From Verrucomicrobiia bacterium (lineage in GTDB: Bacteria; Verrucomicrobiota; Verrucomicrobiia; Limisphaerales; CAIMTB01): DNA of 64,000 bases. Under the pieces are notes generated by a model that was not told the DNA's origin, searched no databases, and saw nothing but the letters and a program-made list of their open reading frames with translations. Position 1 is the first letter of the stretch; the number at the start of each line of letters is the position of its first letter. Positions 41,560-46,762 of the stretch are shown one piece after another. The stretch lies in NCBI GenBank assembly GCA_019634625.1, contig JAHCBA010000002.1, positions 142,114 to 206,113 on the forward strand. Reading direction: 5' to 3'. A program made the translations under genes and the position numbers.

Positions 41560-42540
41560 ATGAGAACCCCACGCATCACGGCCGACCCCGCCCTCCCCGC
41601 CACCTACCATTGCATGTCCCGCGTCGCCGGCGGGCTCCATCTCCTCGACGACTCCGGCAAGAACAAGCTCCTTAACATCCTCCACCACCTCGCCCGCTTC
41701 TGCGACATCGACATCATCACCTTCTGCATGATGTCCAACCACTTCCACCTCCTCATCCGCGTCCCGCCCAAGCCCCTCCCGGACTCCATCCCGGACGACG
41801 TCATCCTCGCCAAACTCGAGGACTTCTACGGGCCCAAGGCCACCCTCCCCACCCTCGCCCGCGCCGCCCTCAACAAGGGCCAACCCATCCCCGACGACAT
41901 CCGCCAGGCCGTCCTCTCCCGCATCGCCGACCTCTCCATCTTCCTCCAGGAGTTCAAACAACGCTTCTCCCGCTGGTACAACCGCCGTCACGGCCACGCC
42001 GGCTACCTTTGGGGCGAGCGCTTCCGCGGTGTCTGGTGGAGAAGACTGTCCCAGCACCACTCACTTATCACCGCCTACATCGACCTCAACCCCGTCCGCG
42101 CCGGCTTGGTCAACGATCCCAAGGACTACCGCTTCTGCGGCTACGCCGCCGCCCTCACCGGCGACAAGGTCATCCGCCGCGGAATCATCGGCTTTCTGGG
42201 CGCAGCCGACTGGAGCGTGGCGTCAGCAGAATATCGCCTGGCGCTTTACGTGATTGGTGGGACGTCGGGGCGGAGCGACAAGCGGGTGCTGGACCCGGAG
42301 GCGATCCGGGCGGAGCTGGCGCGGGGCGGGGAGTTGCCGCTGGGGCAGATCCTGCGGCTACGGATCCGGCACATGACCGACGGGGTGTTCCTGGGATCGA
42401 AGGAGTTCGTGGACCAGATGTGGGAGCGGCACCGGGACAAGTTCGGCAAGCGGCGCAAGAGCGGCGCCCGCACCATCCGGGGCGCTCCCATCCCTGGGCT
42501 GACCGTGTTACGCGATCTCCGTGTCGATGCGGTGGGGTAA
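41560..42540 (+). CDS. REP-associated tyrosine transposase (RAYT)
   Basis: A 326-residue single-strand transposase of the Y1 (IS200/IS605-like) superfamily. The N-terminus ADPALPATYHCMSRVAGGLH and the HUH-like motif MSNHFHLLIRVPPKP (near residues 62-76) are typical, and RWYNRRHGHAGYLWGERFRG (near 135-154) carries the likely catalytic tyrosine. The C-terminus (HMTDGVFLGSKEFVDQMWER) fits the larger RAYTs of Verrucomicrobia and Planctomycetes. The frame is intact. RAYTs mobilise or maintain short palindromic repeats; I could not identify a matching repeat family around it. It stands directly beside a decayed IS630. Confidence 0.88.
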   Translation: MRTPRITADPALPATYHCMSRVAGGLHLLDDSGKNKLLNILHHLARFCDIDIITFCMMSNHFHLLIRVPPKPLPDSIPDDVILAKLEDFYGPKATLPTLARAALNKGQPIPDDIRQAVLSRIADLSIFLQEFKQRFSRWYNRRHGHAGYLWGERFRGVWWRRLSQHHSLITAYIDLNPVRAGLVNDPKDYRFCGYAAALTGDKVIRRGIIGFLGAADWSVASAEYRLALYVIGGTSGRSDKRVLDPEAIRAELARGGELPLGQILRLRIRHMTDGVFLGSKEFVDQMWERHRDKFGKRRKSGARTIRGAPIPGLTVLRDLRVDAVG

Positions 42541-43528: not shown

Positions 43529-44515
43529 CTAAGGATTGGTGTGCTTCACCTTCCCGGCCGCTTCGATCAGGGCGTCGGCCAGGTCCCGGGCAGTCCATCG
43601 ATTGCCGTCGAACTGCCGGTGAATGCGGCCTTGAGGATCAAGGACCACGGTCCGGAGATTGTGCGAGATGCTGCCCTGCTCTCGGATCAGCCGCAGATCG
43701 AGAGCCGGTGCCAACCGGGCGATGGCGTTGGTGCCGAGCACGGCAAACCGCCACCGATCCTCATCGGCGCCCCGATATCCTCGGGCGTAAGCCCGCAGAA
43801 CGGGCGGCCGGTCGAATTCGGGATCAAACGAGAGCGAAAGGAAGAACCAGTTCGTCGGGGCCTTGCTATCGGCCCGAAGCAGGCGCCGCGCCTCCGCGAA
43901 ACTGCGGTTCATCAACGGACAGAAGTCCGGCAAAGGGCAACGCGTAAAAATGAAGCTGAATGCAACCGCCCGGCCCGCAAGCCGCGAAAACCGTTGAACC
44001 CGGCCGTTCTCGTCCAGAAACTCGACATCCGGCGCCAGATCGCCCGGGTTCAACTCGCGCACGGGCAGCAGCGTGAAGGCGGCCTCCTCCGGATCGATCC
44101 CCTCATCCTCTGGTGCATGAACCCGGCCGACCACCCGGAGGTTGTCAATCCAGTGCGTTGCGTCGTCGGCCAGCAGCCGGAACGTCACCACGTCGCCCGC
44201 CTGAACCCCCGCCAGTTCGTTCGTATCGCGCACGTTCAGATCCATGGTCATGCGCGGCATGTACCCCGGAATCTCGTCGTGCCGGATGACCGCAGTGCGG
44301 CGATCCGCCGCTATCTCCCGCACCTCCCCACGCGTCTCGTGAACATGCCGCGCTGCAGTCGCCTCTCCCGCTGGTCGATCACAGCCCACCATCGCCCAGC
44401 CGAGTCCCACGATACAAGCGAGTCGAACCCAATCTGGGAAGGGAACCACGACAGAGAACCCAGCTTGCCGCCGGACCGTCCACCGGCCCGATCCCGCAAC
44501 AGGGGCCGGCCTCAT
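43529..44515 (-). CDS. CusF-like/SCO fusion (copper delivery to cytochrome oxidase)
   Basis: A 328-residue protein with an N-terminal membrane anchor or lipoprotein signal (IVGLGWAMVGCDRPAGE). A CusF-like copper-binding domain (about 55-120) is recognised by IPGYMPRMTMDLNVRD, where the two Met residues are usual Cu ligands. A SCO1/SenC thioredoxin-fold domain (about 150-320) follows. The SCO copper motif is FTRCPLPDFCP with two Cys spaced by five residues, and the His is in SISHNLRTVVL. SCO proteins insert copper into the CuA site of cytochrome c oxidase and have redox functions. It overlaps the HMA lipoprotein gene by four bases (ATGA) and is transcribed after it. Confidence 0.88.
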   Translation of the reverse strand: MRPAPVAGSGRWTVRRQAGFSVVVPFPDWVRLACIVGLGWAMVGCDRPAGEATAARHVHETRGEVREIAADRRTAVIRHDEIPGYMPRMTMDLNVRDTNELAGVQAGDVVTFRLLADDATHWIDNLRVVGRVHAPEDEGIDPEEAAFTLLPVRELNPGDLAPDVEFLDENGRVQRFSRLAGRAVAFSFIFTRCPLPDFCPLMNRSFAEARRLLRADSKAPTNWFFLSLSFDPEFDRPPVLRAYARGYRGADEDRWRFAVLGTNAIARLAPALDLRLIREQGSISHNLRTVVLDPQGRIHRQFDGNRWTARDLADALIEAAGKVKHTNP

Positions 44516-44853
44516 GGCTGATGCGCCCCCATCTGATAGCCGGCGTCGGCGATGACCTTGGCAACCGCTTCCAGCGTCACCCGGTTGGTGTCCACCGCCA
44601 CCTGGGCGAGCGATCGCCCGAAATGCACCTGCGCTCCCGTCACCCCTTCGGTGCGCAGCAGCTCCTTGCGCAGGCCGCTGGCGCAGCCGTCACAATGAAG
44701 TCCGCCGACACTGACCTGCCAGACGGCGTTGGCACCCTCCACTGCTCCCAGGTCAGTGAACGCCGCCCCTTGCGGGCCGGGCCCGCATCCGCTCACCACC
44801 GCGCCTGCCGCCGCTAATCCCAATGCCAATCCCACGAGATGCAATCGTTTCAC
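44512..44853 (-). CDS. Heavy-metal-associated (HMA) domain lipoprotein
   Basis: A 113-residue protein starting at GTG, with a lipoprotein signal (LALGLAAAGAVVSGC). The HMA domain, of the copper-chaperone type, contains the Cu site VGGLHCDGCASGLRKELL with CxxC and ends IADAGYQMGAH. It probably hands copper to the CusF-SCO fusion protein encoded next, since the two genes overlap and both are extracytoplasmic. The GTG start is chosen because it gives a normal signal peptide; a much longer upstream frame lacks coding character. The Cys/Cys pair is intact. Confidence 0.8.
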   Translation of the reverse strand: MKRLHLVGLALGLAAAGAVVSGCGPGPQGAAFTDLGAVEGANAVWQVSVGGLHCDGCASGLRKELLRTEGVTGAQVHFGRSLAQVAVDTNRVTLEAVAKVIADAGYQMGAHQP

Positions 44854-45031
44854 GCGTATCGAATCCGCCACCGAAGCGGCCGGGCTCCATTGCCCGGATC
44901 CGCACGCCGGACGGGAACCCAGAGTATCCCGGCGGCGACGCCAAACACAACGGGTCTTCCGCCGCACGCCGAAGGCGCCGGTCATCCCGAAACGTTTGAC
45001 AGAATGGCAGGCAAGCTGAGGGTGGCAGGCG

Positions 45032-45856
45032 ATGAGTGGTATGCCTCGACGCACCCTCCTTCGCAGGATCGGGCTCCTTTCGAGCGGCGCAGCACTGGCC
45101 CCGCTGACCGCCGCTAGGACGGGGTCCTCCCCGCCCGCGGAGATGGCCCCGTGCCCACCGGAAGCTTGGGAGTATGTCCCAATTAGCCCGGAACGTGCGG
45201 CGGAGGGCACCTATCGCCATTATCCCGGCCACGGCTGCATGTATGCGGTATTTCGAGGGATTGTGGAGACTTGGCGCGAAACCCACGGCACCTCCCTCCA
45301 ATCGTTCCCCTACCAAATGATGGACTACGGCCATGGAGGGGTGGCGGGTTACGGAACGCTCTGCGGTGCCCTCAACGGGGCGGCGGCCGCGGTGGGTCTG
45401 TTCGAGGCCAGCCAGCGCGTCCGCGATGTCCTGCTCGTCGATCTGTTCAAGTGGTACGAACACTCGTCTCTGCCCCAGCACAGGCCCCCGGACCAACCGG
45501 CGGTTCCCGTCTCCGTTGCCGGATCCGTCCTTTGCCATGCCTCGGTTGCCCGTTGGTGCACGGTCGCGCAGTCCAACCCCTACTCGTCCGATCGAGGAGA
45601 ACGCTGCCGCCGGCTCAGCGCCGACGTCACCCGCCACACTGTCGACTTGCTCAATGGCAATCGCAGCAGACCCCGGCGCGACCTCATGGTGCGGGACGGG
45701 TCCTCGGACTGCATGCAATGCCATGCGCCCAAGGCACCACCGGCGACCACGGTGCGCACCCTGATGTCCTGCCAGTCCTGTCATAGCGTCCCCGCAGGCC
45801 ATCCGGATCCAAGCGCCACCGTTCCGGCGCGGATCTCGTTACGCCTGATCCCGTGA
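45032..45856 (+). CDS. Split-Soret cytochrome c-like redox protein
   Basis: A 274-residue exported redox protein. The N-terminus has a twin-arginine-like signal (RRTLLRRIGLLSSGAALAPL). The C_GCAxxG_C_C-type motif is GYGTLCGALNGAAAAVGL at 107-124, followed by VLCHASVARWC (167-176). Two heme-binding sites, CMQCH (227-231) and CQSCH (247-251), close the protein. The layout fits the split-Soret diheme cytochrome family first described from sulfate reducers, for which electron transfer roles are known but not this one. It diverges from the HMA-SCO genes, so copper and heme handling may be linked by the shared 178-bp upstream region. Confidence 0.75.
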   Translation: MSGMPRRTLLRRIGLLSSGAALAPLTAARTGSSPPAEMAPCPPEAWEYVPISPERAAEGTYRHYPGHGCMYAVFRGIVETWRETHGTSLQSFPYQMMDYGHGGVAGYGTLCGALNGAAAAVGLFEASQRVRDVLLVDLFKWYEHSSLPQHRPPDQPAVPVSVAGSVLCHASVARWCTVAQSNPYSSDRGERCRRLSADVTRHTVDLLNGNRSRPRRDLMVRDGSSDCMQCHAPKAPPATTVRTLMSCQSCHSVPAGHPDPSATVPARISLRLIP

Positions 45857-45941
45857 AAGGAGATCCCAGGATCCGGGCAGGGCCGTTTCCTTCCACGAAA
45901 AGAACGTCTCCCGTTGGGCAATCGGATGGGAGGGATGCGAA

Positions 45942-45980
45942 TGAGGGCCGCAGTTGAGGGCCGCAGTTGAGGGCCGCAGT
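45942..45980. repeat. Three perfect tandem copies of a 13-bp unit
   Basis: The 13-base unit TGAGGGCCGCAGT is repeated three times without change (45942-45980). It lies 30 bp before the 3' end of tRNA-Pro and 85 bp after the split-Soret gene. It is a simple tandem duplication with no spacers. Confidence 0.85.
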
Positions 45981-46009
45981 TCCCGGAAATCGCGGCGGGA
46001 AGGGAAGAC

Positions 46010-46086
46010 TGGTCGGGACGACAGGATTTGAACCTGCGACGTCCTGGTCCCAAACCAGGTGCTCTACCGGGCTGAGCTACGTCCCG
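46010..46086 (-). tRNA. tRNA-Pro (anticodon TGG)
   Basis: The minus strand folds into a standard 77-nucleotide tRNA. The acceptor stem is CGGGACG paired with CGTCCCG, the D-arm begins TAGCTCAG, the anticodon stem-loop is CCTGG-TTTGGGA-CCAGG with anticodon TGG, and the T-arm is GCAGG-TTCAAAT-CCTGT. It ends in A then encoded CCA. The anticodon TGG reads proline codons such as CCA and, by wobble, others. Confidence 0.97.
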
Positions 46087-46762
46087 ACTCGATCCGGATC
46101 GAAGTCAATCAGCCGGACTCGCCCCGCGCAATGCTGATCTTGGACATTGGACAGTCCGGCACCCCAACCGCCCATGCCCGCCCTTCATGGATGGATTGCA
46201 GACCGGTCGCCGCATAGGGGTCAGGAACCCCACGGCATTGGGTTGCCGGACCTGCCGACGTTCGTCGTAGTGCAACGCGTCCGGGCATCGGCCTTTGGCA
46301 GTAAATAGGCAGGCGCTTTGCTATTTACCATCCGCGATTCCGGGGGCAGGGAGGGGGGCGACGGGCGACGAACGGCAAAATGTCAGACACATTAACTTTT
46401 ACTCAAGTCGGCATCCGGCGTCAGGGGGATGGGCGGGGGCACTCCATGCGACGGCGCTCAGTGTGGCCGGAGGAAATGGGGCGGGAGCGGATGCTTCCCA
46501 ACGCCCACCTTCAAGAAAATCGCCCCCCTTGAATTTTCTTTGTAAGAAATCCCGCCCACGCCGCGTTATCCGGGCGTGCTGACAATCTCCCACCCGGCGT
46601 ATGGCCTTTCCTGTTCGGGGTTGGACGACTGGAAAGAGTCGGGTTTCGCGCGGCCCCAAAACCACGCGGCGCCGTGCCGGTCCAAGACGCATGGATCGGT
46701 GCGCACCCGACGGCCGACCCTCACTTCCGCCGCCGAGGGTGCCGGGTGGGCCACTTTACTCC
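46087..46762. other. Intergenic region between tRNA-Pro and radC
   Basis: No gene is supported in this 676-bp stretch. It holds an inverted repeat (GTAAATAG at 46301-46308 and CTATTTAC at 46321-46328, 12-base loop) and a short palindrome (AATGT-CAGAC-ACATT, 46379-46393). The second is followed by an AT-rich run that could hold a promoter for radC. The reading frame that runs into radC here lacks coding character. Confidence 0.5.
46301..46328. repeat. AT-rich inverted repeat
   Basis: GTAAATAG and CTATTTAC form a perfect 8-bp inverted repeat around 12 bases. Its AT-rich arms stand out in a GC-rich genome. It could be a terminator-like hairpin, an operator, or a relic of a mobile element. No partner sequence is seen. 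Confidence 0.6.

Follow-up and report, generated by a model that had tools for sequence, protein, structure and literature searches.

Background

The structure of split-Soret cytochrome c from D. desulfuricans ATCC 27774 has been solved (PDB 1h21, an entry titled 'A novel iron centre in the split-Soret cytochrome c'), yet the literature examined names no settled job for the protein. Split-Soret mutants of D. alaskensis were unaffected in fitness under the energetic conditions tested (PMC4215793) and the D. desulfuricans gene is repressed by NO (PMC5701242), SO0939 of S. oneidensis is named as a split-Soret Tat substrate (PMC3623810), and twin-arginine leaders are predicted for archaeal members (PMC4429474). 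ArsG has been described as a transporter for the efflux of organic arsenicals, with ArsE/ArsF among the resistance proteins (PMC9144182).

Here, we analyzed a stretch of 64,000 nucleotides (the window) from a Verrucomicrobiia genome (6.74 Mb, 88 contigs), where a split-Soret-type cytochrome gene lies head to head with a pair of copper-handling genes. The closest described counterparts of its CusF-SCO fusion protein are CusF, a periplasmic copper chaperone, and the SCO1/SenC chaperones, in which three residues between the cysteines are usual. Claims about loci rest on HMM or BLAST matches where these are given, while plain ORF lists are treated as leads.

Locus layout and the shared intergenic region

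On the minus strand, an ORF for a CusF-SCO fusion (positions 43529–44515, 328 aa, with an N-terminal signal/lipobox-like stretch; recognized by Pfam and, by sequence, by SCO structures) overlaps by 4 bp (44512–44515) the ORF of an HMA-domain lipoprotein (44512–44853, 113 aa; Pfam PF00403), whose GTG start at 44853 and lipobox-like VSGC were read from the translation. The split-Soret-type cytochrome homologue (45032–45856, plus strand, 274 aa) carries a twin-arginine leader and was identified by NF047622 (below its cut-off), PDB 1h21 and a structural model. It diverges from the copper pair across the 178 bp between their coordinates (44854–45031, assigned to no strand), and this arrangement is as the preliminary description had given it.

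Co-regulated genes are often arranged head to head at a distance such as these 178 bp, and the intergenic region had been proposed to control both directions. Such shared control is possible but unsupported: a scan for sites of the sigma-70 type only found none in 44500–46100 (0.2 expected), and no close inverted repeat was found, those in the vicinity being short and having their arms at least 43 nt apart. The region occurs only once in the genome.

The copper pair is followed downstream by a winged-helix fragment, its type being frequent in insertion sequences (PF13551; 43130–43438, minus strand), and by an IS200-like/REP-associated tyrosine transposase (41560–42540, plus strand), which suggests that the region is open to rearrangement. 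About 150 bp past the cytochrome gene there is a tRNA-Pro(tgg) (46010–46086, minus strand); tRNA genes are frequent among insertion points, and by DNA matches the tRNA-Pro of the genus mates is on different contigs from RadC.

The copper pair

All three domain calls made at the outset proved sound, each exceeding its Pfam cut-off: HMA (PF00403, E 4e-10, 40.5 bits vs. a cut-off of 24.8), CusF_Ec (PF11604, E 5e-13, 49 vs. 27 bits) and SCO1-SenC (PF02630, E 3e-9, 37.5 vs. 22.8 bits). The copper ligands are kept as well, namely an intact CxxC within the metal motif GLHCDGC of the HMA protein, H79, M86, M89 and M91 in the CusF domain (residues 59–120 of the fusion), and Cys193-X5-Cys199 plus His285 in the SCO domain, which begins at about residue 160. 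The CusF domain has a methionine at what we take to be the position of the E. coli CusF tryptophan. A methionine in place of this residue raises the Cu(I) affinity, according to a review (PMC7558416).

Relatives of the fusion (E ≤ 1e-15, including matches confined to the SCO part) occur in 60 of the 188 genomes of the class that were searched. Across 36 CusF-SCO loci His285 is kept in all, the CX5C motif is visible in 33 (in the rows of L075, L094 and L104, which were not scored, the pattern picked a wrong stretch), and, with one row incomplete, the CusF histidine is kept in 34/35 and the methionine triad in 35/35. Since ligands and CX5C are kept across relatives from the class, the five-residue spacing and the CusF fusion are normal for it. 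A second SCO gene is placed directly upstream in 8 of the 36 loci, and one of the 36, in a genus mate whose genome lacks the cytochrome (G288), has a run of HMA, SCO and CusF-SCO genes with HMA at its head. The copper pair is an ordinary copper-handling operon. Its combination with a split-Soret-like protein, which had been called unusual, is on present evidence confined to a single genome.

The host genome encodes a separate SCO protein on another contig (C15), with a shorter cysteine spacing (FTRCPGPCAQ), whose gene adjoins COX2 and is near COX1. This gene is a more natural oxidase loader than CusF-SCO, and the initial proposal that the window genes load copper into a cytochrome oxidase is weakened by it: the SCO with a genomic link to a copper oxidase is a different gene from that of the window. 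The copper pair may have a role in stress, the other function that had been suggested.

Two further CusF-SCO loci have neighbors that we recognized by eye. In one (L075:7527–9970), an SCO/CusF-SCO tandem comes right after two ORFs resembling subunits of cytochrome bd, a copper-free oxidase; in the other (L071:3246–4577), the CusF-SCO gene is near an ORF resembling a RegB/PrrB-type membrane sensor kinase.

Identity of the split-Soret-type cytochrome

The cytochrome ORF is matched above the cut-off by the Pfam family C_GCAxxG_C_C (E 8e-9), and over residues 5–252 by the NCBIfam model for split-Soret cytochrome c (NF047622, E 4e-53). As its score of 180.6 bits falls below the equivalog cut-off of 400, we call the protein a split-Soret-type homologue and not an equivalog. 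Its best solved relative is PDB 1h21 (E 1.3e-36, residues 46–256). An AlphaFold model built with 22 aligned sequences (pLDDT 71.6, pTM 0.67, the heme tail staying below 50) retrieved 1h21_A in Foldseek as the sole PDB match under 1e-3 (E 1.4e-11, TM 0.63 by query, 33% identity).

Two CXXCH heme motifs (residues 227–231 and 247–251) are accompanied by conserved cysteines at 69, 111, 168 and 192. In the 22-sequence alignment both CXXCH motifs, the four cysteines, H169 and the R6-R7 pair of the Tat-type leader are invariant. In a set of 33 rows, several of them cut or devoid of heme motifs, C69 and C111 are found in 33/33, C168 in 32/33 and C192 in 31/33, the remainder being gaps. The first reading of the protein as split-Soret-like is borne out, its assignment being correct in homology and, as modelled, in fold, with the cofactors predicted from their binding motifs.

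Some homologues lack any CXXCH (L121:7281–7946 and L148:7902–8588), and heme-less forms of the split-Soret body may therefore exist. In a Terriglobia locus (L133:3377–8789), the split-Soret cytochrome gene immediately follows ORFs that contain ten and five CXXCH motifs, a neighborhood that by eye resembles an extracellular electron-transfer cluster.

Distribution and linkage to copper genes

Counting the window genome, the cytochrome is present in one of five genomes of the genus, and its main body in 6 of 286 genomes of the class; nine class genomes give a match, which in three of them (G075, G136 and G221, not counted as homologues) is confined to the heme tail (about residues 220–266). NF047622 matches 6 of 387 genomes of the phylum (window genome included), all below the cut-off, which 0/387 reach; one of these matches (G365) covers model positions 45–223 only, in an ORF without CXXCH. 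While a single-sequence scan of the genome collection with the window cytochrome confirmed no relative, an alignment-based scan, biased toward proteins with its two peptide patterns, gave 31 cytochrome loci in Bacteroidota, Kiritimatiellota, Verrucomicrobiota, Planctomycetota, Chloroflexota, Acidobacteriota, Aquificota and others. Together with L020, L118, L119 and L121 these make 35 distinct loci besides the window, from 42 locus records. A search for plasmid copies of the window cytochrome or of its Mariniphaga relative found none.

In order to judge the linkage, the available flanks of the 35 loci (mostly 8–10 kb a side, several contigs being shorter) were searched by pattern scans and by tblastn with the HMA and CusF-SCO proteins of the window and the HMA protein of a genus mate. 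HMA, SCO or CusF genes were found at 0/35 loci, as judged by eye the pattern-scan matches were heme motifs, motifs of the zinc type or chance frames, and, conversely, the cytochrome was found at 0/36 CusF-SCO loci. Conserved gene order, the check initially proposed for a copper system with the cytochrome as a member, is therefore absent on both sides, and homologues of the cytochrome were not linked to copper genes at any of the 35 loci, several of them on short contigs. We reject a conserved copper linkage, and the data lend no support to a copper system that has a cytochrome of its own; on present evidence, the head-to-head arrangement looks private to the window genome. Whole-genome searches of 30 cytochrome-bearing genomes detected SCO (E 1e-6) in 12 and HMA in 24, while the absence of copper neighbors is the result of the tblastn and pattern scans of the flanks. 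The presence of SCO in 12/30 genomes indicates that the cytochrome does not depend on it.

Phylogenetic position and gene origin

The window cytochrome joins relatives from Bacteroidota, Kiritimatiellota and the planctomycetes in a set of 19 rows (support 95/91), apart from five Verrucomicrobiota relatives, and it shares at most 42% identity with any row, the closest being from Kiritimatiellota or Prolixibacteraceae. Because of its long branch (1.76; 2.12 in the first tree) and odd residue make-up, its place in the tree is unsure. The trees omit L135, L145 and L149 as short, the second one also L152. The third-position GC of the gene (0.75) equals that of its neighbors. Taken together, the grouping and the presence in one of five genomes of the genus suggest that the window lineage gained the cytochrome horizontally.

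Linkage of the cytochrome family to arsF and arsG

In eight of the 31 loci (L125, L129, L130, L132, L136, L138, L141 and L142, from Bacteroidota and one planctomycete), the cytochrome has genes of both the ArsF and the ArsG family, each over its NCBIfam cut-off, at a distance of no more than 4 kb. At L129, of the Prolixibacteraceae strain Mariniphaga sediminis SY21, it is part of an arsR-arsF-arsG-permease operon. Several of the eight also have ArsR, thioredoxin_3, an ArsP_1 or SO_0444-like permease, ArsC, ArsM or Acr3; the seeds of the arsenic and regulator searches were drawn from the same loci after inspection. ArsG exceeds its cut-off in 14 of 30 genomes (18 copies), and in each of eight one copy is located, by its contig position, ≤ 3.5 kb from the cytochrome, with a rough chance expectation of ~ 0.03 (reckoned for the 18 copies at 7 kb apiece in ~ 5-Mb genomes), to which no p-value was attached as the loci are related. 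On the 31-row tree the ars label undergoes four changes, all four being forced by starred branches, while shuffled labels need 7.3 on average and reached four in 2 of 500 shuffles. This count comes from the second tree, which scored the label against all other rows and is our basis, the first having scored it against three rows only. The label falls on a Prolixibacteraceae group, with one loss or absence within it (L137), on the distant L142 and on the planctomycete L130, the latter two being long rows whose place in the tree is unsure. Speaking against the link, none of these ars genes or regulators is seen at 21 of the 31 loci, including a Maribellus/Draconibacterium pair and all Verrucomicrobiota relatives.

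Regulator genes were also seen beside the cytochrome, namely a divergent ArsR-type gene at L128 and, in Chloroflexi (L127:2708–4063), a divergent gene for a CsoR-family regulator (PF02583). The latter was not counted as copper evidence, the histidine of what we take to be the copper CsoR ligand set being absent by eye.

No literature joining split-Soret cytochromes to ars operons was found in a search that had most subscription journals outside its reach. The linkage is new relative to the preliminary description, and makes it a testable idea that split-Soret cytochromes act in metal(loid) stress.

Interpretation of the locus

We consider it probable that the copper pair and the cytochrome are two functionally separate envelope modules that came to stand head to head through accidents of genome history, since the cytochrome is present in one of five genomes of the genus and linked to copper genes at 0/35 and 0/36 loci. 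Under this reading, the HMA lipoprotein and CusF-SCO would bind periplasmic Cu(I), through Cys-X5-Cys plus His and through His plus three Met, and then pass it on. The cytochrome would be exported by the Tat route, hold two c-type hemes and an iron center of four cysteines, and carry electrons in the periplasm; it is patchily distributed, was probably gained by the lineage, and, judging from its relatives, would more likely serve redox chemistry under metal(loid) or thiol stress than oxidase assembly. The two modules would also be without joint regulation. Against such a separation stand the head-to-head layout, the fact that both products are envelope redox/metal proteins, and the arsF/arsG neighbors of the family, which make some metal link plausible a priori; besides, the window protein has a long branch and an unsure place in the tree, and a copper link could be new in this species despite its absence elsewhere.

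A single copper-stress system would have both transcripts induced by copper, with Cu(I) held by HMA and CusF-SCO and the cytochrome serving as electron acceptor or donor in periplasmic Cu(I)/Cu(II) or protein-thiol redox reactions. Such a system would account for the gene layout, the intact copper ligands and the repeated company of cytochrome relatives with metal(loid) resistance genes or ArsR-/CsoR-family regulators. Nevertheless, we find it unlikely, as no such pair recurs in the 35 cytochrome or 36 CusF-SCO loci, the intergenic region yielded no promoter or operator-like feature, and the CsoR-family protein at L127 is without the copper-type histidine. Speculative, and doubtful in our view, is the broader idea that split-Soret cytochromes act in the periplasm as redox partners of metal(loid) resistance, exchanging electrons with exported arsenicals or with an ArsF/ArsG thiol relay in arsF/arsG operons, and that the window protein, hitched here to copper carriers, controls the redox state of copper in the periplasm or of the carrier thiols. 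Assembly of a cytochrome oxidase, with copper loaded by the pair and the cytochrome feeding or reducing it, draws on the Cys-Cys-His ligands of the SCO domain and on SCO proteins being oxidase assembly factors (PMC7558416). It is quite improbable, given that no oxidase gene is among the ORFs and families examined beside the locus, that the SCO adjoining COX2 is encoded elsewhere, and that most cytochrome-bearing genomes gave no SCO match. We give hardly any credence to a decaying, functionless cytochrome gene with a meaningless neighborhood: the long branch, odd residue make-up and score under the NCBIfam cut-off would fit, whereas 274 codons without a stop, the retention of all invariant Cys/His residues and of the RR pair, and a third-position GC like that of the neighbors argue for an intact gene.

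For the window locus the analysis mainly corrects the earlier picture: what stands beside the rare cytochrome is an ordinary copper operon. A better lead than the copper combination is the repeated presence of the family in arsF/arsG operons, which names a concrete condition to look in, namely arsenical or metal stress.

Comparison with known systems

The window cytochrome shares both CXXCH motifs and five body cysteines with the D. desulfuricans split-Soret cytochrome c (1h21) in alignment, while its gene neighbors are different. Compared with SCO1/SenC chaperones, the window SCO has its two cysteines and histidine in the expected places, but it is fused to CusF and has five residues between the cysteines, as do its relatives in the class. 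The CusF domain keeps the histidine and methionine ligands of the periplasmic chaperone; in contrast to the latter it is fused to SCO, and no CusCBA genes were noticed alongside. Finally, relatives of the window cytochrome sit in the arsF-arsG operons of Prolixibacteraceae and a planctomycete, whereas no ArsF or ArsG gene was found next to the window gene, which has copper genes there.
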